Source: Bryoerythrophyllum caledonicum
Lineage: Eukaryota; Streptophyta; Bryopsida; Pottiales; Pottiaceae
DNA length: 64,000 nucleotides
Reading direction: 5' to 3'
Assembly: GCA_963971425.1 (NCBI GenBank)
Contig: OZ020514.1
Location: 15,691,218 to 15,755,217, forward strand
Position 1 is the stretch's first letter. Each line of letters starts with the position of its first letter. Of this stretch, positions 3,501 to 54,172 are shown in pieces. A program made the translations under genes and the position numbers. The notes beneath the pieces were generated by a model. The model was not told the origin of the DNA and did not search any database. It saw only the letters and a program-made list of their open reading frames with translations.

Positions 3501-4026
3501 TATCAAGTTTCTCACGCTCATTTGTAATATTAGAAAGAAGAGATGAACTGTAGAAAGTCTATGAGTTTGGGATACGGTGATCAGTTCCAATATCTACATC
3601 TCTGGTGTGTAGTAGAAAAATCTCGAAGAGTCTCCACGTCCTCACAGAAGTGCACCAGAGATCTCTGGATGTGAAGACGATTAAAATTCGGTCCCAAGTT
3701 CGACATCCCACCCTTCAACTCCCGCAAGTCATCTTGAAGATAACCAAATCCGTGCTCTTCCAGCCAATGTAATTAGGATTCATAGAGTAGTGACAGTATC
3801 ACAATTGACTGGTGTGTGTCACCAGATTATTTTAAGGCCCGCACGTCTCGCCAAAAGCTTACCAGAGATCTCCGGCTCTTTAATCGGTAGAAGAACCGCT
3901 TCTCCTCGACTTCCATAGCTGACAACGGCTGTTGTAAGGCTAGATGTTATCATCAAAAAACGTGGATATAAGGATGTTCATGTATTGCCATGTACACTCG
4001 GTGAAGATCTAGCCGGAGATCTTTGG
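433..4026. repeat. Dispersed GATC-centred palindrome, consensus CCGGAGATCTCCGG
   Basis: Five related 14-mers lie in 3.6 kb: 433-446 CCAAAGATCTCCGG, 1420-1433 CCGGAGATCTCCGG (perfect palindrome), 3655-3668 CCAGAGATCTCTGG (perfect palindrome), 3862-3875 CCAGAGATCTCCGG and 4013-4026 CCGGAGATCTTTGG. Partial copies occur near 4113 and 5431. All full copies are in or next to the DUF7869-type element, at least one inside its probable intron. They may be internal protein-binding sites of the element or a small mobile palindrome. Confidence 0.7.
644..3264 (+). pseudogene. DUF7869-type transposase-like protein, decayed
   Basis: This matches, by recalled family pattern, a large plant protein family ending in a DUF7869 domain that occurs in many copies in bryophytes and behaves like a transposon-encoded protein. 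Pieces in order: a Cys-rich N-terminal motif (ERCCPKCCCQYF) near 880-910; the AWYTIHGIRKSTFH segment near 1070; NADQMPQQMK near 1235; a long open exon in frame 1 from about 1553 to 2466 with FAKCSTC, IHDKMD, LELDNSAKDNKN and GHMHEDIDAYF; and a C-terminal part in frame 2 (2630-3264). The conserved acids of IHDKMD, LELDN and HEDIDA look like a DDE/RNase H-like set; that is inference. Breaks: in-frame TAG at 998-1000 (AGG TAG, consistent with a lost Gln), a one-base frameshift near 1188, a stop and frameshift near 2610. A probable intron covers about 1350-1550. No intact product is possible. Confidence 0.75.
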
Positions 4027-4941: not shown

Positions 4942-5559
4942 AGCTCTTTAGAGAGGTACTGCCAGGTTAGAAATTGTTGTTAGATCCAAGAGTTTTGCTG
5001 AGACCAATCACAATTGTCTTGTAGATTTGCTCTTATATCAGACGTTGTTGTAAAGAGACTCCCTTCCGAAGAAGCATTATAGTTTTCGAACAACCAAGCA
5101 ACTATCTCTTGAATACTCTGCTTCCGAATGGATTTCTCCGCATGGCTGAACGGCATTCCTGACATGTCAATGCTTCAAGCTTTAAAATATACTATACTCT
5201 TCTTGTACAGCTTTACGTATCATTGTTCACAGGAAGGACACTAGTCGTCCACCCATGTTTTTTGGTCCTTCTCCACTATACTACCACAGAAATGTACACT
5301 ACACCATATTACATGGTATATTTTATAAACATGTTAGCTTGAAAGTTGTTATCATATTGTCGATCACGACTAATAAAATTCCACGCTTGTTCTATCACTA
5401 AATCAATCTATATCGTATTACTTAAATCATTCGGAGATATCCGGATGATTGATCAAAATATATTCAACGGGTATCCCTGTCAATTTCTTTGGTGCCACTA
5501 TTTTACTAGACTAAAATCCTTCTTCCTTATTTTTGGACTTTGCAAAGTCCAAAAATAGT

Positions 5560-6300
5560 TAAACACAACATCCTTGTATTCTAAGGATGAATATGATAAG
5601 ACTGCAACGGAGTACAAGGTCATCAAAGCCACCATCGAAACGTGGTATTAGAAGAATATTTAGGACCCTGCTAGAGAGCGGTTCTTCTTGAAGCGAGGAT
5701 CTGCCTTAGCCCCCTCAAACAAGGAGGATGACATTCCAACTATTCCGAGGATGCTCTTTGAACACTAGAAGGCCATCAAAGAGAATCGTATTGAAATCAC
5801 CCCAACCTCATTTCGATTGTCGCTTTCAACGAAGTACAAATTCAGTTGGATAAATAGATAATCCGTAGACGTGGCCAAGACTTTGATGTTGGGCACTTAA
5901 AAAATGTTGCAATGGACAAAAAAGGATGCAAAGGTGGCTCTTGCGTACTGCTTTGTCAATAACAAAGATAAAAGAAAACCTGCTTTTTCAATAATGGAAC
6001 AGATTTTGAAAACTTTGCAAGCTATGGAGCATAAGGATGAAAACCAGTTCTAGAGGGTCCGTTACGTAGGTGTGTTTATCACAGATTGGACAAGAATGGT
6101 CAAGATTGCCAACACTTTAGCCGAGAAGGGAGCAATTGTTACACAAATCCTACCTTGGTTTCACATCCCCACTTTGTATATTACCTAGGGAACCAAGGGC
6201 TTTGTTTGGCACATTGGGGGCGCCAAACAATATTATTGTCAACATTGGTGGAGATCCTTCAATTACCTGGATTGGTTTGGTAAGATGGTCATAGGATACT
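5560..6300 (+). pseudogene. Decayed coding-like stretch, unrecognised
   Basis: Fragments with protein-like composition can be read with several stops and frame changes, including AYCFVNNKDKRKPAFSIMEQ near 5945-6005 and FITDWTRMVKIANTLAEKG near 6078-6130. It lies directly upstream of the linker/FCP1 copy at 6.5 kb, in the position occupied by the recombinase in the other copy. I could not align it to that recombinase. It may be a different N-terminal module or an unrelated element. Confidence 0.3.
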
Positions 6301-6505
6301 ACGATCTCTAGAGCACATCTCTCTATTTATTCAAGTTTGCTCTTCCACACTATCTTTACATCATATGAATGTCTTTTTTGTTATTAGATTCTACCTACTA
6401 TTTTTTGCTCTTGACTAAAGGTACACAAATCATGAAGTCTTCTTCTCTAAGGAAGAAGTGACTAAAGCCGATAAGACAATGAGCAATATCTAGGAAAGTG
6501 CTCAG

Positions 6506-8110
6506 ATGTTGGCAATAGCGGTAAGTGCCATGGCGGCTTTGACTATGTGCAAGAAGAAGAAGAAGATTGCAAGAGGCAAAAAAAAGATGATTGTCATTTC
6601 CACCACCAAGAGTTACAACTCCAACGACTCGAACGAGCCTTTCTTCAACAAGGGCAATGATGCAAAGGAGGAGGAGATTAAGGAGGAGGAGCAACCTCTT
6701 GACGACAGTTGCAAGGGCAAGTCCAAAGCTCAAAGAAAATTGCACATGGAAAAGTAGGTGCAAATCAACTTGACAATTCCACCTACTTCACAAGTTGGGG
6801 CCACCAAGAAAACATTATATTATGCACATGCTAAATTTAATCACTGTCAACATACATACAATTTCTTAGAAAATTTAAAATAATACAACCATGTGAAGTG
6901 ATCGGCAATGCAATGTGGTTAATATTTCGTTTGCATGTTGTTTGTATTCATCTTCATATCCCAAGTCCATGTTGGAAACTGAGGCAGTTCATAATTGCCG
7001 TCTACATACGTCCCTTTTTGGAGACATTGATATGATCAACATTGCTTTGCTTGTAGTTTTTACAACTTGGATTATAAGTATCAATGGATCCATCACTACG
7101 CCATAGAGTCATCACTTACTACTTGATGAGTGCTTCAGGATCATAATATTCTTCTATCCTTTTTTGTCTTTCCTGAGAGAAATTTATTTATACCAAGTTC
7201 TAAGCGTTGTAGTTATGTATATGTGATTTGGTACACAAAGCACTTCATGCCAGACCCCCTTCCATCCATCTTGATCGTTAGTTTCTCATTTGCAGTTCCT
7301 GACTGGGACAACAACTTCATTGACCTTATCCAATGGGCGCAATATCTCCAAATGGCTTATGACGATGATGTGCCAATTACTTCAGCTGTGGCGGAGCATG
7401 TCTACTTCCAAGCTCCCCACGCAATTCACCTATTCATGATACTGACGATGACAATTCGAGTAGCAATTATGAAGAGGATGATAGCACCCTTCAAGCTCTA
7501 GTTAACAAACTGTCGAAAGAGTACTATGAGGACCAAAGTTGTGGAGGAGGTGAACTTTAGTAGATGAGTTCTCTTTGAGATGAAGAGAGGACAAAAAGAG
7601 AAGAGGAGGCGCCGTTGTTCTTCGAGGAAGAGTTCTTTGCATCTGAAACCAGGACGACTGTCTGGAATGTACCACCTTCAAAGCCAACAACATCAGGCAT
7701 TGTTCACCCCTTGTCGTCCGGACACCAATGGAGATAGTACCACCGTCTCATCCTTCATCTAGCCAAGCCATAAAGATTACGACAAATTGTGAACAAGACT
7801 CTGCGGCAATGATTCTTGCTAGTTTATAGGCCATGGATTTGACTATTTCACCCCCACTCTGTAAAGCGCTGTTTGACAAGGAACTTACGATAGGCATATT
7901 CAAGGAGACCAGTCAGTCGCTAAAGGCCTTCAACCCCCTAGGAACGTTTCAAGTGTAGTTGATGTTGAGGACTACTTTGATGACCCTCCAAATTTCAGCT
8001 AAGATATTTAGCCAACAACCTTTAGTATTGTCTCGAGACCTGTTGATGTTGAGGCTCCTGATGCTAAAAAGGGTGCTCCATCTGCTCAACATATTGATTC
8101 CAGACTCGTT
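6506..8110 (+). pseudogene. Linker region of the FCP1-like gene, decayed copy
   Basis: A K/E-rich exon (6506-6757) is followed by a second coding-like exon after a TTTGCAG acceptor near 7297 (PDWDNNFIDLIQWAQYLQ) and by an acidic stretch to about 7560 that aligns with 47.9-48.1 kb on the minus strand. Later parts (7840-8100) align with the acidic exon at 47416-47748. Stops are frequent and the frame changes between 7430 and 7465. No enzymatic domain is visible; it is a charged, probably disordered spacer between the N-terminal module and the phosphatase domains. Confidence 0.6.
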
Positions 8111-8228
8111 GTAGAAGGTATGTGTCTATTAAATTCTACTACCTTGTTGTTTTGTGTGTATTTGAAATGTTCAAGGTTCACATTGATATCTTCAGGGTAT
8201 ATCGGGATCTGCAATCCTAAATACAATG

Positions 8229-8296
8229 GTAAGATCTTACGATTCCATTTGGGAGGATAAGATCCTATAATCCTCAATGGGATTGTAGGATCCTAC
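8229..8296. repeat. GATC-centred palindromes of the FCP1 element, plus-strand copy
   Basis: GTAAGATCTTAC (8229-8240), ATAAGATCCTAT (about 8257-8268) and GTAGGATCCTAC (8285-8296) occur within 70 bp in a presumed intron. They correspond in position to the cluster at 47198-47291 in the minus-strand copy. Eroded copies are also visible at about 9363 and 9440. Confidence 0.7.
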
Positions 8297-8620
8297 TACC
8301 CTCAAGCACAGCTGTCACAAAATGCTCGCAACTTCTAAGCATTCCAAATGACTTATGGGTTGTGTATTCTTCACTAATGACCTTCTTTGTATAAGCAAAG
8401 GAGATTTCTAGGACTGCTCAACTTTGTAAAAAGGTTCAATCATCCGCAGCACATAAGGATTTTGGTCCCTCTAGAGAAGATATGTTTCTAGGCAATTCCA
8501 CATATTATTATTTGTATTCTATATTGCAAACTTATTCTTGCAACATTGGTTTTCTGGAGGGACCAAAATTAGCCCTGGTTTTTTAGCCCTGGTTTTTTAG
8601 AGCAAAGGTAAGACAACCTT

Positions 8621-9226
8621 GGTACACTGTTGTGTTGGACTTGAATGGATTTCTGGTTCACATATCGTACGATAAGGGGCGTAAAATTGTCGCAAGACCC
8701 GAGTGTACAGATTTTCTAAAGGTGCTGACAAAAAAGGCTACTATTGTGGTATACAATTGCGCCATGAATAAAGATGTCGATAGCATGTTACCGGTGGCTT
8801 TGGATAGTTCTAGTGGAAAGCTAAAGGACCTATCAGTTATATCACAATCTGTATTACGGAGTCGAGCTTTTTTAGAGCGGGGAACAACATTGAGAAGAAG
8901 TACATGCTCAAGGACCTAAAAAATTTCACGGAAATTGTTGAGCACGTGGACCTTAGATTGACATTGCTCATTGACAGTTGTCCGAAGAAGAACCTCTTCA
9001 ACAATGAGTTCAGTGCGATTCATCCTCAAATATAGATAGGTGACGCAAAGGACAAGTTCCTTATAAACACTATGCTTTGATGGCTCAAGAATATGTTTTC
9101 TTCAAACCTCTCTATGGCCAAATATGTTCGTAACCAACCCCTTGCCGGATGTCTAGAACCTGAAAAATTAAGGTCCATTGCGTTGGCTCAGAATATTTTA
9201 ATTAAATGTTCTAAAAAATCAAAGTG
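8621..9226 (+). pseudogene. FCP1/NIF-like HAD phosphatase domain 1, decayed copy
   Basis: FCP1-type phosphatases are HAD-fold enzymes with a DxDx(T/V) nucleophile motif. Here the motif reads VVLDLNGFLV, so the second Asp is Asn. It is followed by RPECTDFLKVL and a VVYNCAMNKDVDSML strand-helix. A frameshift near 8860 moves the reading to the part that aligns with FIDDTPEKNLLNNEFSAI of the other copy. In this copy that site reads LIDSCPKKNLFNNEFSAI, so one of the two conserved Asp residues is also changed. The end fits a splice donor (AA|GTGAGT) near 9226. Confidence 0.7.
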
Positions 9227-9564
9227 AGTAGTCATTGGTGATGTGTATATTTTATATCTCTTGTAGTATGTACCTCTAATTTGTGAAACGATCTTCAATA
9301 TTGTGGCCATCATTTTATTTTGAATATTATTAATTGCAATATCACTCTGAATTATCTTTAGGATGTTAGGACCTACAACCCTGAGGAATATAGTAGTTAA
9401 GGATATTGTATGATTTTTGTAGTACGGATAGTTGTGTTGTTGGATCCTATGACCCTCATGGATGCAATAGTTAAGGATCTTGAACAAATGATTATTTGTG
9501 GTATTAATGGCAGTGTGGTAGAATCCTACGATCCATAATGTTGTTCATAACTTCTATCTTTCTC

Positions 9565-10055
9565 TATGATCTTAGCGATGCGACGGCTCAAAAAATTTAT
9601 CGTGTTGTTTGTCAACGGATTGCTTTATTTCAAGCAATACAATAACTACAGCGCGCGACGTTTCAATTGGAACAACATCATACTTTAGCCTCGTCTCCTA
9701 GAGTTCTTCAGAATACTTTTGAGATCCTTCCAAGTTGGTATTTGGTCGGCCATGGTCCTTGCGAGCCTAAAAAATGTTTTGAAGTCCTCCTAAAATCCAT
9801 TAGGTCAAGCCTTCATTTTTGTTATAGAAGAAACAAGTGTTCAAGGCCACAATTGTATCTTTTTAGTGAATACGTTCTCGGAAGACTCAACGAACCAAAA
9901 GACAAAGCAACTTTGTTTTCCTAACAAAACGTTGATGGTTGATGACCAACCAATGCAACATATCTTCAACAAAGACCTCGATTGCTACTTTCCAAAGTCT
10001 TGGCATGGTGAAATGACCTTATCCAATGCATCCAATACATTGAGTTCTTTAGTGG
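9565..10055 (+). pseudogene. FCP1/NIF-like domain 2, decayed copy
   Basis: This aligns with the minus-strand domain at 45269-45895. Conserved pieces are HFCYRRNKCSRPQLYLF near 9810-9865 and LMVDDQPMQHIFNKDLDCYF near 9930-9990, followed by PKSWHGEMTLSNASN. The two parts are in different frames and the nucleophile strand near 9590-9660 is broken by stops. The downstream 10060-10440 segment matches the 3' tail of the other copy and contains one copy of a unit that is tandemly duplicated there. Confidence 0.7.
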
Positions 10056-10440
10056 CTTGCTTTCATTCAATATATTCTATGATTAAAGTTGTCACTAGTT
10101 ATTACCCTCATTCCCCACGCCTATTTGATTGCATATTTATCTGATTATACTACATTGATTGCCCTATATGTATTGTTAGATTGTAGGATTCCTCTATATT
10201 AACTATGTATCTTGGATTGCTAGATTCCACTACTTCATTTGATGCCTTTTTATACTTCATCTCTAAGTGAACGTTGCATGCTATATTTATTGAAATATTC
10301 ATGATGCCAATGGTAACATTGTAAGATCTCATGGTCTTGCTTCCAACATCAAGAATTGATCCAAAGTCCAGAATTCATCCTAAAGTCTAGATTTACTTAA
10401 ATGTTGCATCTTTATAAAACCAAAACTAAATAACACAAAA

Positions 10441-29589: not shown

Positions 29590-31110
29590 GTCAGAGTAGA
29601 GGAGCAATTGACACAACATAACAAAAATTGTGACATAATAGAACGGGCCCTAGATGAAGGTGTGAACTACGAGTTAGACAACCTCAAGGAACGATACGAG
29701 AAACTCCGGCTAGAAAAAGGGCAGGTATTGGAGGACAAGTAGGTTGTAGAGGGGATGGTAGAGGACTTAAAGAATCACATGACTAATTTGGAGGATGTTG
29801 TAGCATTAATCCGTGCTATAATTATGAGGTTGAGAGGGAAGTTGTGAGAGGCCAATGAGAGAAGGGCTTTCTTGGAGGAGAACATTGATGCGAGCAAGAA
29901 AGAACGCAGAGACGTCCTCGTGCGCAAGATTTGTGAGTTACACGAGGAGTTGAATTTGAAAGAAGTAGATACCATGGTCTCAGAAATCACTGGAACCATT
30001 GTTATCAATGACGATGACCACTTGGTGCGCCAAGCCGAGTGTGTAGCAACAAAGCACAAACGTCATGCACGCCTTCCATCAATACTTGAACCCCCACGAC
30101 AGTCAACGGAGGATACCTTGACGTTGCCTATAGATAGTGACGGCAACCTCAACACTTGGTAGCAATAGCCGGAGGCAAGCCCTATAACTATGGACAAGAA
30201 CGTACAAACATTGTTGTCATATAGTTTAGCTGAAGAACAGATACCCTTGGAGGCCACATTGGACTCAAAGGTGGAAAAGATGGTACCAAAGATTGTCATT
30301 TGAGAAGGCAAGTGTGGACGAGAGAAGGTTTGAAGTACGTTTGAAGGAGGAGGTCCAACAACTTTGTATAAAGAGCATCTCACTTGACCACGACCTTTGC
30401 AAAGAGGAAGTAGTGGCATAAGCTTTGGAAAAGAAAGAGTCCATTATCCTTTTGCAGAAGGGAAAAGATTAACAAAAATGGGCAGAGAAGAAGCCGTGAA
30501 CGAGCTAGTTGCACAGGGAGTGCACAAGCGTGTAAACAACCTGGACGCACTGATGTTGCGCGTTGATTTGGCTTCCACCTTATTGGCTCTTTCAACCACG
30601 GTGTTGAATTGGATGGTGGTTACAGAAATAAAGGAAAAGAGGGACCAACAAGCTTGGTGTAGGCTTGTCCTTCAAGCATTGCTATGCAGCACATGCGCCA
30701 ACTATATGAAGCGTTCTTTGGACGCGGTGATTCACTCCAAAGTTATCAACTTGACAACCCACGTAACGTGTTAAAAAGATTGCAATACCATATTTGAGAG
30801 GTTGCGTCATTCAAATGAGGCCTTGACCGGCAATGGCGCAATTGACTGGTCAAATGAGCAAAAAGAGGAGTGGGTGCGGTATGCCATGGAAAAATGTGGT
30901 ATTGATTCCATGAAGGCAACCATAAGGGCGCCCGAAAGCTTTCTGGAGTGGCTTAAAGATAGAACAATGTGCTCGATCTGTCTGGAGAGATCTGGTCCAA
31001 AGGAAGCATATATGCTAGGATTTTGTATGCATGTCTTCCATCCAACATGCTTTGATAACATGGCAGACATGAATAGATTTTATCCCACGTGTTGAATGCC
31101 AAATTCTACG
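29590..31110 (+). pseudogene. Coiled-coil protein with C-terminal RING-type zinc finger, decayed
   Basis: RING proteins are E3 ubiquitin ligase components. The C-terminus (30961-31098) reads CSICLERSG, then GFCMHVFHPTC and FYPTC, which fits the Cys/His order of a RING finger except for the last CPxC pair, eroded and followed by TGA. Upstream, frame 1 carries coiled-coil-like sequence from 29590 to 30160 (EELNLKEVDTMVSEITGTI) and again from 30480 to 30770. The intervening part (30320-30480) reads in another frame (LKEEVQQLCIKSISLDHDL). In-frame stops include TAG after 29740, TGA near 29846 and TAG near 30160. A coiled-coil plus RING layout is common for plant E3 ligases. Exact identity is unknown. 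Confidence 0.55.
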
Positions 31111-35666: not shown

Positions 35667-38600
35667 CTAGTTATGCCAGAGGGGTTTTAGACAAGAGATG
35701 AGTTTGTCCTTGCCGTGAGGACCACTCTCGGTTTCTAGAATGCGGGTTTTCCAACGCACGGACATGGCCAAATCTTGCACGCGGTAGGCCATTTCGTTGG
35801 ACTCCCGGATCAGCGCCCAGCCGCCGGGTCGCAGAATGCGATCCATCTCCAACACAATATGGGCGACGTTGCACCTAGAGATCAAGCGCATCAGTTGTAC
35901 AAAATGAGATCCTCAACACTAACTTCCAAACATTATCATTTATACAGCATTGTGAGCATTCCCAAGAGAAAATTCATGTAGGGAAAACGTAACATAAAAT
36001 AGGATTAATGAAACCAGCTGAAGAGAGAACCTTGGTTGCTCATGAGAGAAGAGCTCGACCGCATGCAGCATATCATACGTTCTTGGGTGTGTGTCAAAAG
36101 GCTCACACCTAGATACGAAACAACCAAAGCTCAGTTAAAAACTCGTATTCGTTGAACTACTGGAATTAAACTACTGAACGATTACTACTAGTTAACAATG
36201 TCTCACCAATCGTGTGAGACGCCGATGAATCCCCTATCGTAAATTGCAGGCAGAGTGTCGGGTCCACTGATGGGAACAACGTTCATGACCCACCAGTCGA
36301 CTTTCTGGTTCACCAACGCTGTCGCGAATCTACAGAGGCGGTTACAGGAATGAAATATTTACTTACAGAAACCAAGAATCTTTTATTGAAAACGATTCTA
36401 AAGAATCTAACTGAGTAAGCCTTTTCTTTCAGTGAGTGAGATCCTCACCCTCCATACATAGCGCGCATGTCCATAATATTCCGGAACTCTTCTTTGTGAA
36501 GGCCTAGACCCCGAAGGTAGCTTTCCACTACAGTGTGCCAGTATCTCTGATCTGATTTAAACACCTCTGTCTTTGATAGTCTACCATCGGTGACAACCGT
36601 CTCTAGCCTTCGAGGGGGAGTCAATAATCTTACAGGCCATTCCGGGAGGTTCCCGCCAAGCCCATTTTCAGGGAGCAAAGTTATGCAAGGTAGCAGTGGA
36701 ACATACCTTAAAGTATCAATTCCAGCATGATCAGGACTTGCCAATAACTTTGAGCACAAACAGCGGATCACTGTTCACAACGCTACAGAATCGTAACTCA
36801 GCTCATTAAAAGCGTAATTAATCTACCACATATGTCAAACGAATGTCAACAGCACGACCTTACCAGTTTTTATCAGGATCAACGGTTACATCACATAGAG
36901 GAGGGCCTCTGTCCAAAGGTCGACTCTTTAAGCAAATGTTATTTACAGACTTACGCCAGATAGCAACCTGCCCATCATTTCCAACCTGTTCCCAACATAA
37001 GCGTTTTGCCAGCTCCTCCATCTCTGCAGTTTATAAATAAATTTCAATACATTACTTCTTAAATTAAAATGCATGGGACAAGATTGAAAGCAGCACTTAT
37101 GTGGCTAGCAAATTATTAAAACCGAGTACCTGTCAGGATGGTACCCTGATCGCCTTGGGGCGACCACACAAACCATGCACCAGCTCTGAGTACACGATCC
37201 ACCTCCACTAGTAAAAGTCCACCTGATTGCATCAGAACAAAAATAAAAACTTCAAAATCAATAACGAACCTCTTAATCTGTACGGACTCCTCCTCAAGCG
37301 ATGAGATACTATATAAGGAAACAGCAAACTGTGAGGTCTGCAAGAGTAACTTACCAAAGATGCCTCTAAACCTCACTCAGGTATGGAGCCAATATCGACG
37401 GTGGCAATTGTAACAGAAAAGGTAATGATGTCTCCGTAACAGTCTCGCTACTGCGAATAGATATGACATAAATAGAAAGAGCCATACCATCACGAGTCCA
37501 GGCAATCTGGCAGCGAGAGCAATGTATCAGATCAAAGGCCTGACTAGGAAACAGTAGCCGGCGAGTTGCCAGGACAGCAACAAGAGCTGGTACACCACGC
37601 TCCAGTGCAAATTGACTTTGATTACCATCCTCGGGAGCGATCGAAAGAGTGATTACGCTTCGATCAAACAAGTAGGCTCCAAAGCTTGCTACACCACAGC
37701 CAATATCAAGTGCAACGCGTGTACGGCTCCCGTAACCAATGTCGGGCAGCATCTGCAATGGAAAGATCCTTCTAGATCATCAAACAAAATAACAGAGGAA
37801 ATACAATCTTAGTACATTTGAAATAGGTTAAACGAGCCTAATAGTTGTTTCATACTTCACCAATATGGTCAAGGTATCGACGGGCGCCAAGGCTTGATTG
37901 AATGTCGCCGCCAGAAAATCTCAACATGTCTTTCCATTGGTTCATCCAGTTCTCTCCGCCCATGACTGCTAGAAATTGCATATATGGGACATTGCAGTAA
38001 CGAATCTGCGTCAGAGGGTACCAACAATGTAAACCCAAAAGCGTACAGGTGACCAAACCAAAGAACATGGATATGCTTCTGGAAGGATATGGAACGCTGA
38101 CCTCATTACGGCTTCTCGGCCACCTGATCGGAAGTTTATAGTTAAGCGGCGCAGCAATCAAACAGCACATGGTGACTCTGCGAGGACAATGCCGTTCCCA
38201 AATTTCACCCCGAGTGCACAATTTCAGCTTTGCAATAGCACCAGAGTTATCACGATAAGGAATAAAATCCTTCCACCGAGGAGCACAAACTTCAAAATTG
38301 TACGCCTTAAAAGTCTCGTTAGCTCCCGAGCTCCAAGATGGATAATAGTCTGACACACCTCCAACGTCCTGCAAATAAAAATCATTCATTAAATGTTCCC
38401 TAAGCACACTCCACCAAATGCCACATCTTAGATAACTCCCAAACCCTTAATAAAGATGAAATGGTTGCAAAACTTTGACAAGAGATAAAAATTCACGAGC
38501 TATCCTTATCCCCAAAAGTGTGCATATTTTGTAATCTGCGGGCATTGTAGAAGCTTTCTCAAAAAGCACGTGATCAACTTACGGAAATAACACACAAGCT

Positions 38601-44330: not shown

Positions 44331-44869
44331 TAGTATTGTACTGAACAACAAATAGAGTGCTTGAAATCAACATCAAACATATAATTAAACATCAATTATA
44401 AAAGCTTAACAATTACACCTCTCAGAGAGAATTAAACATCCATAGTATAAAAGTTAAGCGATAGTCCCACTTCAAAGGAAGGATCTTAGATTGCAAGTGT
44501 GAGACAAAGTGTGATAAGTTTATTAAATGATAATCATTATCTTCAAGTAGTTCTAACGACACAATTTTGTCTTTATATTCAGCTAGTAAACCTGATAAAT
44601 GAATTACGTTGAAGAAAATTTCTCTATTATACATTAAATTTTTTGTAAATGCGACATTTAAGTAAATGTGGACTTTAAGATGAATTCTGGACTTTGGATC
44701 AATTCTTGATATAGGAAGCAAGATCATGAGATCATACGGTGTTACCATTGGCATCAGGAATATTTCAATAAATATAGGATTGAGCCTACAAATTAGAGGT
44801 AACTGCAACATTCACTTAGGGATGAAGTATAAAAAGGCATTAAACAATGTAGTGGGATCTGGCGATCCA

Positions 44870-45290
44870 AGATACATCGCTTACATAGTGGGATCCTACA
44901 ATCTAACAACACATGTAGGGCAATCAATGTAGTACACATCAAACAAAGAAGCATTCAATTAGGCGCGGAGAATGGGGGTAAGAACCACTGACAACTTTAC
45001 TCATAGAGTATACCGAACAAAAGTAAGCCGCTGAAGAATTGAATGTAGGGAAGCGGCTACATACTTTGTAATACTCGCTCAAGATACATAGCGTACATAG
45101 TAAGATCCTACGGTCTAACAATACATGTAGGGCAATCAATGTAGTACACAAAAAAAAATAAGCAACCAAATAGGCGTGGAGAATGGGGGTAATGACTATC
45201 AAAAAAATATATTCATAGAATAAATTGGATGAAAATCAACGCCAACAGAACTCAATGTAGGGAACCAACTACGTAGTTCGTAACACTAGC
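44870..45290. repeat. 212-bp tandem duplication in the 3' tail of the recombinase/FCP1 element
   Basis: The unit from about 44870 to 45081 is repeated from about 45082 to 45290. Matching phrases are GATACATCGCTTACATAG and GATACATAGCGTACATAG, CATGTAGGGCAATCAATGTA in both, and GGAGAATGGGGGTAA in both. Each unit includes one GATC-centred palindrome (44888-44899, 45100-45111). The plus-strand copy has a single unit at about 10080-10200, so the duplication arose in this copy. Confidence 0.8.
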
Positions 45291-45895
45291 TCAAAGTGCC
45301 ATGGTTTAAGCATTCTACGATTAAATTTTACATCCATCGGGTGCCCTCGCAGATACTGCTTCACTGAGGCGTAAGATTGCAGCGGAAGGATGAACGGAAG
45401 CAACGTTGTGCCAATATTAGGTATAACATTGGATGTGTTGGGTAAGGTCATTTCACCATGCCATGACTTCGGAAAGTAGCAAGCAAGGTCTCCGTTGAAG
45501 ACATGATGCATTGGCTGGTCATCAACCATCAACATTTTGTCAGGAAGATAGAACTGCTTCGTCTTCCGGTTCGTCGAGAGTCTCTGAAGAATCTTGTCAC
45601 CAAAAGGATACAATTGTGGCCTTGAACACTTGTTTCGTCCATAACAAAAAATAAGTCTTGACCTTATGTCTTCGGGGAGGAGGACTTCAAGGACCTTCTT
45701 CAGGCGCGCGGGGACCATGGACGACCATATACCAACTTGGAAGGACCTCAGAAGTATACTGAAGAACTCTAGGAGACCAGGCCGAACAATGATGTTGTTT
45801 CGATTGAAGCATTGCAGGGAGCAATTATCGTATTGCTCGAAACAAAGCAATCCGTTGATAGACAACACGATAACTTTTGTCGAGTCATCGCGTCG
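45269..45895 (-). pseudogene. FCP1/NIF-like domain 2, HAD fold with altered nucleophile
   Basis: The domain is open for about 205 codons. The HAD nucleophile strand reads VIVLSINGLL, so the catalytic first Asp of DxDx(T/V) is Ser and the second is Asn; phosphatase activity is unlikely. Other FCP1 features are kept: RPGLLEFFSILL, VGIWSSMVPARLKKVLEVLL, the second-motif region LMVDDQPMHHVF with two Asp, and YFPKSWHGEMTLPNTSN. It ends in a TAG at 45269. It is the second of two tandem FCP1-like domains, separated from the first by an intron that carries two GTAGGATCCTAC palindromes. It could act as a binding module (pseudophosphatase). Confidence 0.7.
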
Positions 45896-46021
45896 CTATG
45901 ATCATAGAGAAAGATAGAAGTTATAAACAACATCATGGATCGTAGGATTCCACCTCAGTGCCATCCATACTACAAACAAATCATCCATACAAGATCCTTA
46001 ACTACTCCATCCATGAGGGTC

Positions 46022-47291
46022 GTAGGATCCTACCACACTGCTATCCGCGTCACAAAAATCATACAGTATCCTTAACTACTACATTCCTCAGGGTCGTAGG
46101 ATCCTACCACCCTAAGGATAATTCATGGGAGATATTGCGATTAATAACATTCAAAATTAGATGATGGCCTCAATACTGAAGAGTGTCTGATAAAGTAGAG
46201 GTACATCCTACAAGTTTATATTGAAACAAAATATACACATCACCGATATGAGTGAGTAGTCATTGAAATGCCCCGACTTTGGAATTCCATTTTCGAGAAC
46301 ACCCAATTACAATGTTCTGAGCCAACACAGTGGACCTAAATTCTCCAGGAACCAAACATCCGGGAAGGGGATGGTTACGGACATATTCGGCCACAGAGAG
46401 ATTTGAAGAAAACATATTCTCGAGCCATGGAAGCAAAGTGTTCATGAGGAACTTGTCCTTCAGGTCACCTGTCCACGTTTGAGGTTGAATCGCACTGAAC
46501 TCGTTGTTGAGGAGGTTCTTCTCCGGGGTGTCGTCAATGAACAATGTCAGACTGAGGTCTACGTGGTCAACATATTTCCTGACGTTTTTGAGGTCCTTGA
46601 GCATGTACTTCTTCTCAAAGTAGTTCCTCGCTCTCGGAAATCCCAACTCCGTAATATCAGATTGTGACATAACTGTAAGGTCCTCTAGCTTTACAGTAGA
46701 ACTACCCAAAGCCACCTATAACATGCTATTGACATTTTTCCTCATGGTACAACTCCATACCACGACAGTAACCTTATTTGTCAGCACCTTCAGAAAATTT
46801 ACACACTCAGGTGTAGCGACAGTTTTACTCCCCACATCTTACAATCTGTGAATAAGAAATCCATTCAAGTCCAGCACAACAATGTACGGAGGTTGCCATA
46901 CCTTTGCTGATTTATTAGCGGGTACACTAAGTTTTCCTGTAGAAAACCAATGTTGCAAGAATGAGTCTCCAATACAGAAAACTAATAATAGCAGTAGGAT
47001 TGTCTAGAATCATACCTTCTCTAGAGGAACCAGAGCCCTTATGTGCCACCAATAATGGAACCTTTTCACAACGTTGAGCAGTCCTTGACATCCTCCCTAT
47101 CCAAAAAAAGAAGGTCATTAGTGAAGAATACACGACCCATAAGCCATTCAAAACGCTTATACATTGCCAACATTCGAGACAACAATGCTCGAGAGTAGTA
47201 GGATCCTACCATCCCATTGGAATCGTAGGATCCTACCAACCGAATGGGAAAGTAAGATCCTACTCTCCCCAAAGGGATCATAAGATCCTAC
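46022..47291. repeat. GATC-centred palindrome family, consensus GTAGGATCCTAC, minus-strand copy
   Basis: Perfect 12-bp palindromes GTAGGATCCTAC occur at 46022-46033, 46096-46107, 47198-47209 and 47225-47236. One-mismatch copies occur at 47252-47263 and 47280-47291, plus GTGGGATCCTAC at 44888-44899, GTAAGATCCTAC at 45100-45111 and GTAGGATTCCAC at 45942-45953. All lie in presumed introns or the 3' tail of the recombinase/FCP1 element, often followed by CACCCTNAGG-like text. A 12-mer is expected far less than once in this length by chance. Confidence 0.9.
46260..46905 (-). pseudogene. FCP1/NIF-like HAD phosphatase domain 1
   Basis: It reads IVVLDLNGFLIH at the nucleophile position (first Asp present, second Asp replaced by Asn), followed by a VVVWSCTMRKNVNSML segment, then LFIDDTPEKNLLNNEFSAI, the paired-Asp motif of FCP1-like phosphatases, and DKFLMNTLLPWLENMF. 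Two in-frame stops lie in the first third (a TAA about 10 codons after the nucleophile and a TAG just before 46715). The rest, 46715-46260, is open. DLNG variants of FCP1-like proteins exist among plant and animal genes, so the Asn may be ancestral rather than damage. The exon that precedes it (47107-47015) and the short exon near 46920 match the plus-strand copy. Confidence 0.75.
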
Positions 47292-47415
47292 CATGGCCGT
47301 TAGGATCGCCGATCCTAATATCCCCTGAGGATAATAGTGTGAACATAGAACATAAAAGATACACAAAAAACAACAGGATGGTAGAATTTAATAGCCACAT
47401 ACCTTCTGCACAAGG

Positions 47416-48122
47416 TCATACATCGATATTTTGTGCAGATGGAGGACCTTTTTCAACAGCATCAACCTCAACATCCGGTCTTGGGACGATCCTAAAGATT
47501 GTTGGCTGAATTTCTTGACTGAAATTCAAAGAATCATCCAAGTAGTCCTCAACAATAGGTGCATTCGAAACATTCCTAGCAGGGCTGAAGACCTGTAGCA
47601 ACTGACTAGCCTCCTCGAATATGCCTATGATAAGCTCCCTCTCGAACGGCGCTTTACTTACTGGGGGTGAAACAGTCGGATCAATGTCTTGTAACCTGGC
47701 AAGTGTATTTGCGGCAGAGTGTTGCTCAGAATCTATCGTAGTCTCCATGTCCTGGCTGAAGGAAGGATGAGAGATGGTTCTAACTCCATCGGTGTAGGTC
47801 CAGACAACAGGAGATGACGCACGTCCGATCTTCTCGACTTTAAAGGTAATACATTTGTGATGGTCATCGAAGTTCGAAGAGCATGTAACTCTTCCTCCTT
47901 GAGCAACGACGACTCCTCTTCTCTTCTTGTCCTCTCCTGATCTGGAACAGAACTCACCTCCAGAAGTTCACCTCCTCGACAACTCAGGTCCTCATGGCAC
48001 TCATCGGGCAAGTCGTTAACTAGAGCCTGAAGGCTGCTATCCTCTTCTTCATAAATTGTGCAGGCATTGACATGGACAATATCATGAAATATGCAGATGC
48101 CAATTATGAACTTCCGCAGCTC
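47416..48122 (-). pseudogene. Acidic linker between recombinase and FCP1-like domains
   Basis: Two overlapping open pieces (48122-47733 and 47748-47416) encode a charged, probably disordered spacer. The first, after a CATGCAG acceptor near 48122, includes IYEEEDSSLQALVNDLPDE and a long R/E-rich stretch. The second includes IVEDYLDDSLNFSQEIQPT. The frame changes between them near 47740. A donor (AAG|GTATGT) near 47400 ends the region. Compared with the plus-strand copy, about 400 bp has been lost near 48075, which probably removed an exon. Confidence 0.55.
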
Positions 48123-48282
48123 CCTGCATGGAGTTGGGATATGATGATGCATACAACGAATATGCAAACAGAAAATTAACCACACTACATTGCTGATCAG
48201 TTCACATGGTTATTGTAATATACAACTATCCTAGAAACAGTTTGTCCGTTGACAGAGATAAAATTTAGCGTGTGTATCATAC

Positions 48283-50228
48283 AATGGTCGCCTCATGGCC
48301 ATCGGGTTGTGTAGAAGAGGGAGGAGTCAAGTTGATCTGCTCCTTGTTATCCAACGGGACTCTTCGATGAGTCTTGGACCTGCCCTTGCGCCTATTGTTC
48401 AAAGGCTGATCCGAATCAGAGGCCGCCTCTTTCTTGAGAACCTGAAAATATTTATCATCAATACCAAGCAAAAACAAAATAAAAAATTCATAACCTGATA
48501 AGATCCTTTCTGAATAACCTCTGCAGCAGAGGCCAAGTCCACCACCTGAAATATCACATAAAATATTAGAAAATTCAATGAATAATAAAAGAACTAACAA
48601 CACAGAAAATCACTTCACATTACCTTAAAGACTTTTACTTTCTGTTCTTCCTCAAGGAGCAACTCTCCAAACTTAGCAGCTTTGCCAGATTCCAAACGAG
48701 CTAAATCCCCGTTTATCGCACGTTGACAAACACTCATATCAACCTGATCGGAATTGGCGTTGTATTGTTGATAAGACTTCTCATCCCGGTGACCAATAAC
48801 ACGCATACCTTTTTCGGTAGGAATATTCGCCTCCAGCATCCTCGTGATACCAATTCGCCGCGGTGTCTTGTTACTAAACTTACGGCCCACCACGTTAATG
48901 CCTGGTGTAGACTCAATGAGGTCTCTAACAAGATTACCCAAGGGATTCTTCCCCATTGGACGCGGATGAAACCAAACTTTGTTGGTACACTTAATCTTCA
49001 ATTTCGGCATCAAGAAAAGAGGATGACCAACTTTATCAAACTTTGCTTCCATCACCGATTTCTCTGGCTGGTGCTCCATGACAGTGTTGAAAGTCAAGAT
49101 TATGTCAGGATCAGCCATGTCCACAGGATGCTGAATCGAGTGGCTGGAGCATCGCTCTACAGTGAATTTGTAATTTTTAGACAAGATTGGTTTATACCTG
49201 ACATTCCCACATGAAACGAGAAGCAAAGAATACATAAGAAAAGTATAAGTACACATAAGCAAAGTGCATAACTTACCTAAGGAGCTCCTGGCCGTTCACC
49301 AACACCAATTCAAACTAGTCCAGGATAGTAGACCGTAACTCCTCCTTGCCGCGAGTGAACATATTCCTGCAAGCACAATAACCAAGCCGCGAATTGCAAC
49401 CTTGCGGATGCTCCAAACTAGCACCAGAACTCCTCAGCACACGGACCTCCTCCTCGAATGAAAGTACATCACTGGTAGATGCTTTGGTACCAAGACCTTG
49501 CTTTAATGCTCGCAATACAGCCGCCATCCCTACGTCCTTCACCTTCCGATAACGAACATCTCTAAAAATGTCAAAAGGAATCTCTGGAACAGACGTTTCT
49601 GTAATACGCTGCTCTTAGCGCTTACGAATCACACGACCAATAGCGCGAAGCAGATTCTGGATACTGAAAAACCGAACACAAAGATAAGCACAAATATAAA
49701 AACAATAATTTGAAGCAAAAACTTCACCAAACATTACTTACGAGCCAGGCGGGTAAAGTGTGCCGTCCTTCTTCGTAACCTGTAGGGCAATTCGTGTAGC
49801 ATCTGAACGAATCCACGAACATCGGCCTGCTCCGAGAGCTACTCAACAGTCAAATCAATGGAATGTTCAAAACAAACACGCCATTCATCAAACGCGTTGT
49901 GCCCAAATTTCTGAGTGTTTACTCTTCCGATCACCGCTGGCAACAACAAGAGCTACTTCCTTCTTGTCCAGATCAAGAAAACGACGTTGTCCTCCACCAG
50001 AACCACCACCAGAGCCAGAAATAACGTCGCCCTTGCTATCAGCCAAAGGAGGTCCACCAGAATCATCCTCTTCATCAAAATCCACAAGGCTGGGAGTGAA
50101 AACACCAGAATCTAGATTTGGATTGTCTTTATCCGGGAAAGACTTGATATCACCAACAGGAACCTCCAAATCCACTTCCTCTTCTTCTTGTTCACCGTCA
50201 CTATCTCCATTAGTATCACTGTCCTCAC
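48283..50228 (-). pseudogene. Crypton-type (DUF3504-like) tyrosine recombinase, nearly complete
   Basis: Tyrosine recombinases cut and rejoin DNA with an R...HxR...Y site. Exons: 50228-49742, 49663-49277, 49197-48624, 48545-48495, 48441-48283; the last four joins are GT-AG and in phase. The first exon is acidic, then WA, NAFDEWRVCFEHS and VTKKDGTLYPPGS, the N-terminal signature shared with ZMYM2/KIAA1958-like Crypton proteins. The second has LLRAIGRVIRK, RALKQGLGTKAS, LSFEEEVRVL and TRGKEEL. The third is catalytic: WFHPRPMGKNPLGNLVRDLI, KFSNKTPRRIGITRMLEAN with the Arg, MRVIGHRDEKSYQQY with HxR and Tyr. The last two give VVDLASAAEVIQKG and the charged start of the linker. Breaks: a frame disturbance near 49890, TAA at 49615-49617, TAG at 49319-49321. 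Confidence 0.8.
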
Positions 50229-50888
50229 CTGAGCAAACAAGGCAACTAATCAACAAAGATGCAAGATAAACAAAGATGCAAGATAATCAACACGATTAAA
50301 AAATAAATCAGGTCCAATAAACAAAAAATAAATCAGATTAAATAATTACATATATGAACAACATACATCAAAATATACAAACGACAAACAACAGATCAGA
50401 TCAAAACAACCTATAAGTAACAACAGCATCCACAACTGCGTCATTAAAATCTTTGCCACCTGCAGAAAAATCAATCAAAACTTGCAATCTAACAAATCGA
50501 ACTTATAAACCAGCGCTGCCGCGCGGCGACTATCCAGCCAATGCCGGCTATGTCGGAATTTTTTCTTAACAGAATTCTTTTATAACTTGCATTAATGACC
50601 TGATAGAACTAAATTTACTAAGTAAGAGACAACATACAATGGTTGCACCACTCTTTGAACAAGGAACATAAAAGATGCTAAACATCAATACACAACAAAT
50701 CATATCAATAAACTACCTACCAGTACCTACACCATCGGCAACAACATTCCCCACACCTATACAGAAACAAAAGATAATCAATAAAACAACACACAATCTA
50801 ACAAACTCACATCAAGAATTACTAGTAACCAAAGCAGGCTATGTCCGAGCATTTTAAAAACAAATTTCTGCACTACGAGTTGCATTAC

Positions 50889-51350
50889 CTGATAGAACTT
50901 GTTCTGACTGAGTTAGAAACTCGTCAAAGGAAAGGTTGCACCACTCATTGACAGCGGCGTCATCATCTTTTGATTCGGGAATCAACTCCTCATCATCCGC
51001 ACAATCTTGATCAAGCTGTTGAAGGTCCAGCGGATGTTGGACATCATCTTCTTCAGAAGTCAAAGGAATTTCGCCATCTGGCACATACTTGGATTGATTT
51101 TCTAAGACAGACATAGAATAACATGTCAGAGTTAGGCAAACATTCTACAACATGTCCAAGAATTACAACCATACATGTTTGGCACTCAGTCTTCACAGGA
51201 AGAATACTGCATCTGATGCCGAGGTTAAACAAATGCGAAGGTGGACAGTCCTCCAAAATGTAGTATTCGCCGTCACACTTCCTCCTCTTCTTCCCTTCCG
51301 TAACCTCCATCCTACACACATCAATGCAAAAAATGTGACAAAGAAAAGCG
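50889..51350 (-). pseudogene. Probable 5' exons of the recombinase gene
   Basis: One exon, 51105 to 50889, is strongly acidic (EEDDVQHPLDLQQLDQDC, then PESKDDDAAVNEWCNLSFDE) and ends in TCAG|GTAATG. An earlier one, about 51315 to 51173, starts after a TGTGTAG acceptor and gives KKRRKCDGEYYILEDCPPS, with five Cys in total that might bind zinc. A leader with ATG near 51668 (MDLVRPEVGVNEALFKMFYD) is possible further upstream. Small candidate exons lie between 50.76 and 50.40 kb, but I could not make their phases agree, so the 5' gene structure is provisional. Confidence 0.45.
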
Positions 51351-51699
51351 CAAAATAAAACCAAACTCAAAGATATATAACGCACCTGCTGACGCGCACA
51401 AAGAAACAACAAGTGAAAGACAGGACGATAAGTGAGATACGAAAAACGAGTGAGAAACAATGAGACAGATAGGATGACAAAGTACACATCACCTGATTTT
51501 GAGAACCTTCCGAATCCGCAGTCATCCGTCCAAGAACCACGGTCATACATCACGCAAGCGCCATCGCCATCGAGCTTTCTCCCTTCGCGCCATAGAAAAA
51601 GCCTCATTGTCGTAGAACATTTTGAAAAGAGCCTCATTGACGCCAACCTCAGGCCTCACAAGATCCATGCCCAAATGTACTCTGCAGTAAGAACCACGT

Positions 51700-53620
51700 T
51701 TTTCTTATGAGAAGCTTACAAATTGTAAATATAGTAAATAATACAAATTTTTTGACTTACTACGGCCCTACAAAACTTACAACGTGCGCAGAAACTTGTG
51801 TTGCTGCATCGCACCATCGCCAAAGTTCGCCATCGCCCCACGCTCACAACGACATACACAAAACATTAGAACCTCAACAAAAACAAGAACTCAAGTTGTT
51901 TACCACGACTCATGCGTTGATGACCAAGAATTTTTAAGTACACGGGCCAAACACGCCTTTAGCACACAGGCTGAGCTCGAAATCTGCCATCGCCAATACA
52001 ACGAGTTGCGCGCCATCCGCCATCGCCAGCACAACAAGTTTCGCGCCATGAGCCAAGTTGCGCGCCATATGGAAAGAAACAAGTGCACTGCAACGAAACT
52101 ATTCTGGACCATGCACAGCAAATGAAAAAACATGAAAAAACAGCGGCACGAGCAAAACCAAGAGAAAAATAGAGCCCTAGATCGGATATGGCAACCCATC
52201 AGGATCGACGGTCGACATCGTCGCGTATTATGAACGCAAGATCCAATGGTCTAGAATCAAACACGTGATCGGATGAATGACTCTTGTCGTGAATGAAAGC
52301 ACACTCATCGACACTGATAACCGGTGACTTGCGGAATTGGTCACCTTCTCGAAGGTTCCCTGCCCTCGATCGGACGGTTGTGAGTTGCTTCCCTTGATCG
52401 GGCGGCTATAGAGTTAGGTCATCTTGTTACTGTTGCAACCTGCTTTTCTGAGACGAGGAGAGATTTTCTGTACTATTTTCATGTCTCATGGATGAGCGGA
52501 GGGGGAGAGAGAGATTGTCGCTCTTGGCTTCGTGCTGCTGGCTTTTGTTTTTATGGAGCACTGCATTGGAGATTAGGAGATGAGGAGAAGACTCGTGTGC
52601 GGCGTGACTTGTGGAGAGGTCACCATGGTGAAGTCGACGTCGCGACGTTTGCGGGGAAGCCCGAGACACCAGTGAATAATAGTAAGTGTTGTGTCATTCT
52701 TTTCAATCTTTCTGTCTCTCACATGTCGTGAAGTTTGGTGACATTATGATCCATACTCACTCTGTCAATGTTGAGTTATGAAGCTGACTTGAGATGGTTG
52801 AGAATGTAGGTGGCGGAGTCGGAGGGCGGCACTGCTGCTGTTGTGTCCATGAGCGTCTCGCCCTCGTCGTCGCCATGGTCGGAAGTCGAGTGAGGCATGA
52901 CTCACACACCATACTGCAGCTGCTGCCCGCGACGCTCTTCCGCCTTGCGGCCATCGCCACCCATTTCGCGCCTCTTCCTCACCATAGCAAGACCACGACC
53001 TATGGCCTGCAGCTGCCTCAATTCAGCTCAGACAATATCCACTCAGATCGCGACACTGGTGGAATCTCGGCTGTGGCGTGCAACGCAAACTCTGTTGCTG
53101 ATGGCCAAGGGTGATGTCCCTGCTGTCACGAATCGTCGGAATCAATCTCACCAGCACAGTAGTAGCGCCCACCTCATCTGGTAAATATGGTAGACTCGCG
53201 AGTCGCAGTGAATATATCATGATTCGTGATTCGTCCCGAATTCAATAACTGGCAACACCGGGAGAGCGCGAATGTTGCGGACATGTTGCCCATCTTGGTC
53301 CACAGCCATTCCCCCGTCAACTTCACCTCCTTAACTTGCAGGTTTGAAATTTGGACAGACGCGACGAGCACATCATAAAATATTCAGAAAAACTTTTATA
53401 ATTTTATTTTATTGTAACAATGGCGATACAATTGTGACTCCAGTTGAGCCGCAACGACACAATTTTTGAGCTTGTAAACCACGTAAGATATACCAAGATG
53501 AAACAGTTATAAGCCGAGGCAATCTCGGGCAGGCCCTCCTTGCGTAGGCAGGCTTGGTAAGCTCGGCAGGTTTGGTCTGTGCGGGCAAGCGCAGGCAAAA
53601 AAACCCGAATGGGTGTTACG
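51700..53620. other. GC-richer intergenic block without a supported gene
   Basis: The block contains CGCCATCGCC-type repeats (51.8-52.07 kb) and related phrases CCCTCGATCGGACGGTTGTGAG and CCTTGATCGGGCGGCTATAGAG (about 52365 and 52393). Overlapping open frames on both strands between 52.4 and 53.4 kb have low-complexity, GC-driven composition and no motif. It may include the promoter of the minus-strand recombinase gene and parts of captured gene sequence. Confidence 0.45.
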
Positions 53621-53622
53621 CC

Positions 53623-53749
53623 GGGTGAGGTCCCGATTTTCGGGCCTCACCGGTTGTCTGGTGCCCTTCTCATCGGGTCGGGCTACCGCCCTTGCCCTCT
53701 TCGTCGTGCACCTCACAACCAGTGAGGCCCTCAAATCGGGGCCTCACCC
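53623..53749. repeat. Hairpin with 35-bp inverted repeats
   Basis: 53623-53657 begins GGGTGAGGTCCCGATTTTCG. The reverse complement of 53715-53749 begins GGGTGAGGCCCCGATTTGAG and the two arms agree at about 31 of 35 positions. The loop is 57 bp. It is GC-rich and lies 420 bp upstream of the BES1/BZR1 fragment. It may be a small foldback element. It is not a bacterial-type terminator. Confidence 0.8.
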
Positions 53750-54172
53750 TATACATGATTTGGGGGATACTAGGTGGAGCGCTACTAGACAATTTGGGAT
53801 CTCCGTAATTGTGCAGCAGGAGCGTTTCAAGGGTGAGCCAGGAAGTCGCCCATCTGCCCGCACGACGCAAGATCGGCCTTCTCGAAGTCCCTTGAGCTAG
53901 GTCCAAAGTCCCCCAGTTCCACCGCTCCCCGTTCCCATTGCACCGTTCCCTGCAGTAGGGTTCCGCGCTCCAACTTTGGCCACCGCCGCTTGCCCGCGCG
54001 GCCTACCTTCTCCGCGCTCCACACAACGCTGCTCCCCGACATCGCCTTGCTCCTCGACGTCGACACTCCTTCTTCACTGCTTGCCTCCTTCGACGTGCGC
54101 GCTGCTTCCTTCCTTTGACGCGCTGCTCTTTCTTCGTGACCGTGTCGATACCTTTGTGCTGCTCGTCTGGTA

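Follow-up and report, generated by a model that had tools for sequence, protein, structure and literature searches.

Cryptons probably move by tyrosine-recombinase strand exchange at the ends of the element, and they are not known to have terminal inverted repeats; active phosphatases of the NIF/FCP1 family carry the motif DxDx(T/V). In the available portion of Kojima and Jurka (2011, PMC3212892), 6-bp direct repeats are described for Crypton ends, the legend names only Chlamydomonas reinhardtii among plants, and the domesticated DUF3504 proteins (KIAA1958, ZMYM2 and QRICH1) are said to have lost most of their catalytic residues. Tyrosine-recombinase and FCP1-like sequences both lie in the 64,000-nucleotide stretch of contig OZ020514.1 analyzed here (the window), where a first-pass annotation had proposed one minus-strand transcription unit of a plant Crypton relative that had acquired a double FCP1-like tail. 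Our study identified two repeat families in this locus, a tyrosine-recombinase transposon (element A) and an FCP1-bearing repeat (element B), which occur separately in the copies examined, meet at a breakpoint within an exon, and are crossed by a coding region interrupted by stop codons. We consider, with a probability of about 0.9, that the locus arose when members of two mobile-element families were joined by chance, and that it is dead as a gene; the fusion of recombinase and FCP1-like domains into one unit is very probably false.

The junction between elements A and B

The components named by the first-pass annotation are largely present. The minus strand carries a tyrosine-recombinase coding stretch with its motifs in an open exon, its translation contains LYPP and EEE, and two FCP1-like domains follow downstream on the same strand (Table 1), both matching PF03031 above the gathering score. 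From the R, HxR and Tyr signature that had been described, the arginine and the tyrosine are found, but box II is occupied by lysine (KTPR) and not by histidine, and what had been given as HxR is the GHR further on. Chance similarity can be dismissed for both parts, since each has matches at other places of the genome (E down to 7.5e-120 for the recombinase and to 2.3e-129 for FCP1-like domain 2).

The window DNA resembles the four closest recombinase copies (L020-L023) until 48413-48411, where the similarity ends, and similarity to copies of the FCP1 element begins at 48412. Since the ends of the two repeat homologies meet inside 48441-48283, this exon is half of each repeat. In L020-L023, the gene extends past the equivalent of 48413 to an exon end of its own and a further shared stretch of ~1.0-1.9 kb, with full copies reaching ~1-1.9 kb beyond the cut, and this shared 3' stretch was not found in the window. 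The homology limits on both sides, together with the 3' part proper to L020-L023, therefore show that the FCP1-like tail is not the normal C-terminus of the recombinase, and we rejected that interpretation, also because the tail is missing from the 20 relatives fetched. These were taken, chiefly from among the most similar, out of the 69 other recombinase loci, and each was read together with flanks of ~3.4 kb upstream and 6 kb downstream; neither the linker nor FCP1-like domain 1 or 2 was detected in any of them within ~6 kb downstream (tblastn, E<=1e-3). Related loci in which the two parts never occur together had been named in advance as evidence against the fusion, and the result (0/20) comes close to this. 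Among the matches listed (83 recombinase and 150 FCP1 places), the pair in the window is the nearest, at 3.4 kb, and the next-nearest pairs lie 43 and 44 kb apart.

A Crypton-derived gene whose double FCP1-like tail acts on the C-terminal domain (CTD) of RNA polymerase II or on chromatin would agree with the single strand, the recognizable domains, and the phase-0 exon joins that can be drawn after the catalytic domain. These joins had been reported as leading in frame into the linker; the third of them, however, runs into the breakpoint exon. The single open transcription unit does not survive inspection of the reading frame: five stops and one frame slip, located before QVTKKDGTLYPP in the recombinase part, make the region from 50.2 to 45.3 kb unreadable today as a single protein. 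Considering also that the 20 relatives read lack the tail, that two independent repeat homologies both stop at the breakpoint, and that catalytic aspartates are missing, we regard this explanation as very improbable.

A transduction event, in which DNA of the FCP1 element was taken up by the recombinase element and the composite then spread to further places as a unit, is consistent with a joint that lies within an exon and keeps the frame, and with a composite whose two ends are both natural (5' of A, 3' of B); however, no second chimera was seen in the 20 fetched loci, nor within 43 kb among the matches listed, which leaves this scenario with a small probability. It is also conceivable that two repeats were mis-joined in the contig, dispersed repeats such as these being prone to it. 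Against such an assembly artefact stand the 65-Mb length of the contig (C1) and the identity of the closest relatives found, which at ~85-87% for the recombinase DNA and 92% for the FCP1 DNA is low enough to make confusion between copies unlikely; we find the artefact scarcely credible.

The chance chimera accounts for a 3'-truncated element A (~53756-48413) that directly abuts a 5'-truncated element B (48412-44649). The loss of the 3' part of element A and of the 5' part of element B would have left broken ends that came together at 48412/48413, probably leaving the scar of a deletion or of illegitimate recombination between neighboring copies; the in-frame appearance of the joint would be a coincidence. 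The following points weigh against this interpretation: the reading frame is continuous over the joint, with splice sites that can be drawn; the 20 loci read downstream represent a fraction of the 69, and further chimeras may have been missed; and 150 of 1943 FCP1 candidates were scored, so that a few other chimeras may have escaped there too.

Table 1. Positions of the features of both elements within the window
Feature	Positions	Strand	Remarks
Element A, tyrosine-recombinase transposon copy	48413..53756	-	DNA common to L020, L022 and others, from the 5' end to the cut
Imperfect palindrome of ~130 bp, 5' end of element A	53620..53756	.	Self inverted match 53623-53749
N-terminal piece, start MEVTEGKKRRK	51121..51309	-	87-89% identity in L020-L022
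Acidic region of recombinase gene	49891..50286	-	Matched in 18/20 fetched copies
In-frame stop TAG, recombinase part	49839-49841	-	
Box I exon of the recombinase (Arg at 49353-49351), interrupted by two in-frame stops	49277..49662	-	Matched in 19/20 copies
In-frame stop TAA, recombinase part	49615-49617	-	Box I exon
In-frame stop TAG, recombinase part	49315-49317	-	Box I exon
Catalytic exon, open, 191 aa	48625..49199	-	NKTPRRI, GHR and QQY; present in 20/20 fetched copies
Catalytic residues	Lys 48869-48867, Arg 48860-48858, His 48791-48789, Tyr 48764-48762	-	In 48625..49199
Chimeric exon VLKKEAASDS/DQPLNNRRK...	48283..48441	-	Switch from element A (up to 48413-48411) to element B (48412 onwards)
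Element B, fragment of the FCP1 element truncated on its 5' side	44649..48412	-	Natural 3' end ...TTAAATGTCGCAT at 44649
FCP1-like domain 1 (DLNGF), two in-frame stops	46263..46889	-	PF03031 E=4.7e-12, read-through 46883-46263
In-frame stop TAA, FCP1-like domain 1	46839-46841	-	
In-frame stop TAG, FCP1-like domain 1	46716-46718	-	
FCP1-like domain 2 (SINGL), open, 208 aa	45272..45895	-	PF03031 E=4.7e-8
Second, decayed FCP1-element copy with its own upstream module, without recombinase	5572..10409	+	Same 3' end

Element A, a Crypton-like family

The catalytic exon has at least 83 matches in the 437-Mb genome, the window included (E 1.4e-127 to 3.3e-4), which merge into 70 loci, again with the window, when those within 12 kb are joined; these counts are lower bounds. 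The matches are not enriched on contig C1 (8 of 83, against 12.4 expected). Among the fetched copies, 17 of 20 contain the piece at window 51144-50857 (tblastn, E<=1e-3), and 15 of 20 have an aligned catalytic exon free of stops. Lys111, the GHR and Tyr146 are conserved in all 20 and Arg114 in 19, while the box I arginine is present in 14 of the 17 readable copies, the other three having cysteine. For ten pairs of catalytic exons, the ratio of nonsynonymous to synonymous substitutions (dN/dS) was 0.05, 0.19, 0.20, 0.21, 0.39 and 0.62, with four pairs giving no ratio (L028-L031, with dN 0.024 and dS 0, and three in which dS was not computable); the window against L020, L022 and L023 gave 0.12, 0.32 and 0.52. 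According to these values, the coding capacity of the recombinase family was for the most part maintained by selection until recent times, and purifying selection is seen in most usable pairs.

The family also has common ends. The 5' end shared by L020, L022 and the window lies at 53754-53756; inward of its palindrome, which is shortened in L021, is a repeat CGTAACrCCCATTCGGG that occurs likewise in L020 and L022. The 3' end common to L020-L023 reads ...ATCGGGCGTTACG in L020, L022 and L023 and ...GCGTTA in L021. Both sides of the element are connected by a 21-bp inverted repeat (19/21 in L020, 18/21 in L022), and copies with both ends measure ~6.4 kb (L020) and ~7.3 kb (L022); by eye, no clear target duplication was seen at the ends of either. 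A six-frame scan of L020, covering the element from 1.2 kb onwards (the part before that lies in L040) to its end at 5196, detected no reverse transcriptase. The RVT_1 match of L020 at ~6055-6847 (-), E=1.9e-25, lies in the flank past the 3' end of this recombinase element.

The profile search suggested in the first-pass annotation matched NIF/FCP1 (PF03031) in the tail, but for the recombinase it gave a weak Phage_integrase match to the exon open reading frame (ORF; E=0.15), and the joined read-through matched no family, the DUF3504 profile PF12012 included. Better support comes from the alignment with three annotated cyanobacterial integrases, which scored 76, 77 and 74, values reached by 0 of 1000 shuffles in each case, and which placed Lys111, Arg114, His137 and Tyr146 of the window in the catalytic columns; these integrases were chosen from a tblastn search at E<=10 in which the individual matches are weak. 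The same threshold returned 101 phage records, 15 of which were listed (E 3-6) and 14 of these bear the name integrase, together with 11 plasmid records at E 0.4-9, among them three named integrase or recombinase. A DUF3504-type sequence that matches PF12012 (E=2.7e-17) aligns with the window protein at E=9e-13, but it is not independent evidence. A PF12012 search of the same genome returned nothing, although 14 controls were equally silent. NCBIfam gave no match for the recombinase exon, a PHROGs scan gave nothing useful, no relative of the DUF3504-type sequence was confirmed in a GTDB scan, and IMG/VR confirmed no viral relative for the recombinase exon, the DUF3504-type sequence, their alignment, FCP1-like domain 2 or a 469-aa ORF of the FCP1 repeat. 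The AlphaFold model of the single recombinase exon was unusable (pLDDT, its predicted confidence score, 34.7).

Our results support the classification of element A as a Crypton-like, multicopy tyrosine-recombinase transposon with a spliced gene, in what is probably a plant genome. This part of the earlier proposal, the Crypton relative, is retained on the basis of the preserved catalytic residues, the purifying selection in most usable pairs, the shared ends and the lack of reverse transcriptase in the scanned part; the acquired FCP1 tail is not, being absent from the 20 relatives. Like the Cryptons in the available portion of PMC3212892, the element is multicopy and encodes a tyrosine recombinase, with no reverse transcriptase in the scanned part. 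Unlike the R-H-R-Y of Cryptons, its box II residue is lysine in 20 of 20 copies, its gene is spliced, and the 21-bp inverted repeat lies at or near its ends. DUF3504 is a recombinase fold derived from Cryptons; unlike its domesticated genes, element A keeps the catalytic residues and has at least 83 matches rather than a single copy. It resembles the DIRS1-type retroelements and plant ALOG domain treated in the part of PMC3537659 available as a mobile-element tyrosine recombinase in a plant lineage, and differs from DIRS/Ngaro retroelements in that no reverse transcriptase was found (one copy, L020, from 1.2 kb onwards). Judging from the conserved residues, its enzyme would cut and rejoin DNA through the tyrosine, and strand exchange catalyzed by this recombinase at the element's own ends is the most likely way in which element A moves.

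Element B, an abundant FCP1-bearing repeat

FCP1-like domain 2 has 150 scored matches, the window included, which are the best of 1943 candidates and are 61-91% identical outside the window. Contig C1 holds 82 of the 150 places, all above 12.6 Mb, against 22.4 expected from its length (P=1.6e-29), a share that may not hold for the rest of the 1943; C1, the longest of the contigs seen, is possibly a repeat-rich or sex-linked chromosome. The second copy in the window is collinear at 6688-10409 (+) with 48412-44649 (-), at ~73-80% DNA identity. Upstream of it, tblastn found no recombinase, and a putative recombinase remnant there was rejected because its DNA similarity was noise (the top recombinase-like protein score in the window outside the locus is 59, at ~3494-3780). 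What lies upstream is the decayed module from 5572, which also precedes the FCP1 domains in L043 and L044, with 69% protein identity. A 424-bp segment of the second copy (7009-7432) is missing from the linker of the main copy; L043 and L044 have DNA at this place too. Between the two window copies, dN/dS ranged from 0.42 to 1.11 in seven blocks, codons with stops excluded, and is of little informative value because coding and noncoding DNA diverged alike (66-81% and 78-86% identity).

L043 and L044 are 97.9% identical across 8.78 kb and have other modules, without a recombinase, upstream. Both end after ...ACATTTACTTAAATGTCGCAT, as does the main window copy at the same place; the second copy ends at the same point with one changed base in the ACATTTACTTAAATGTCGCAT stretch, besides two upstream. 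On the 5' side, the DNA shared by L043 and L044 reaches a tandem array of ~54-bp units, for a shared length of ~10.2 kb. Element B is thus an abundant repeat of ~10.2 kb or more, with two FCP1-like domains, unrecognized upstream modules and a precise 3' end. Of the eight ORFs scanned in L044, NIF was matched twice above the cut-off and the remainder were weak or without a match, the antisense frames had no profile match, and no mobilizing enzyme was recognized among these ORFs. A 469-aa ORF at L044 247-1653 (+), also in L043, has no Pfam match and contains GGQHCVAAHR, which might be ParB-like. The ORF at L044 7782-8300 (+), just past the 3' end of the FCP1 element, weakly resembles an endonuclease (E=0.042). 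Toward the 3' end of the element, 212 bp are duplicated in tandem (window 44868-45294); a similar repeat occurs in L043 and L044 and is not doubled in the second window copy as aligned.

The closest known counterparts of the FCP1-like domains are the NIF/FCP1 family of HAD proteins (PF03031; SCP, Dullard, Tim50) and the plant FCP1 homology domain C1271.03c-like proteins, which they resemble in their profile matches and in a preserved (V/I)DDxP. A PDB search was weak (best Tim50, E=0.098, for domain 1), and the dullard-like NCBIfam match of domain 1 (7.5e-6) is below the cut-off. Unlike the family, with its DxDxT, the two domains show DLNG and SING, the corresponding motifs of L043 and L044 being DLNGF and SVNGL, and they are encoded by an abundant repeat. 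As the second aspartate is present in neither domain, dephosphorylation of the CTD, and with it the proposed action on RNA polymerase II, is unlikely; from these motifs, the better guess is that the domains bind rather than dephosphorylate. The 5'-side tandem array, the small palindrome and CGCAT at the 3' end, the recent 98%-identical copies and the many copies on one chromosome-scale contig are traits of a repeat that might be a large plant mobile element of a class not yet described, moving without a Pfam-recognized enzyme, possibly mobilized in trans, and using impaired FCP1-like domains as binding modules, a reading that we consider doubtful.

Neighboring genes and significance

Other coding sequences in the window include an ORF with DUF7869 at 1549-2463 (+) (PF25273, E=5.5e-33), upstream of the second FCP1 copy and on the same strand; pieces of a Methyltransf_29 gene at 36448-38446 (-) (PF03141; E 3.4e-40, 1.4e-19 and 4.8e-15); and a RING-finger piece at 30775-31092 (+) (PF13639, E=1.1e-6; PF17123, E=1e-6). 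Methyltransf_29 is a family typical of plants, and its presence supports a plant as the source of the DNA.

In the open-access literature, including the available portions of PMC3212892, PMC11630846 and PMC3537659, we found no multicopy tyrosine-recombinase transposon family described in land plants, and nothing that joins NIF/FCP1 with a tyrosine recombinase, or FCP1 with a transposable element and a plant genome. Our analysis disposes of a plant gene fusion that looked attractive but is very probably false, and leaves two repeat families that are of interest in their own right. Element B places FCP1-like pseudo-phosphatase domains in an abundant repeat, which genome annotation could miscount as host FCP1 genes. 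Element A provides direct evidence that what is probably a land plant has a tyrosine-recombinase transposon family that is present in many copies and bears signs of purifying selection.

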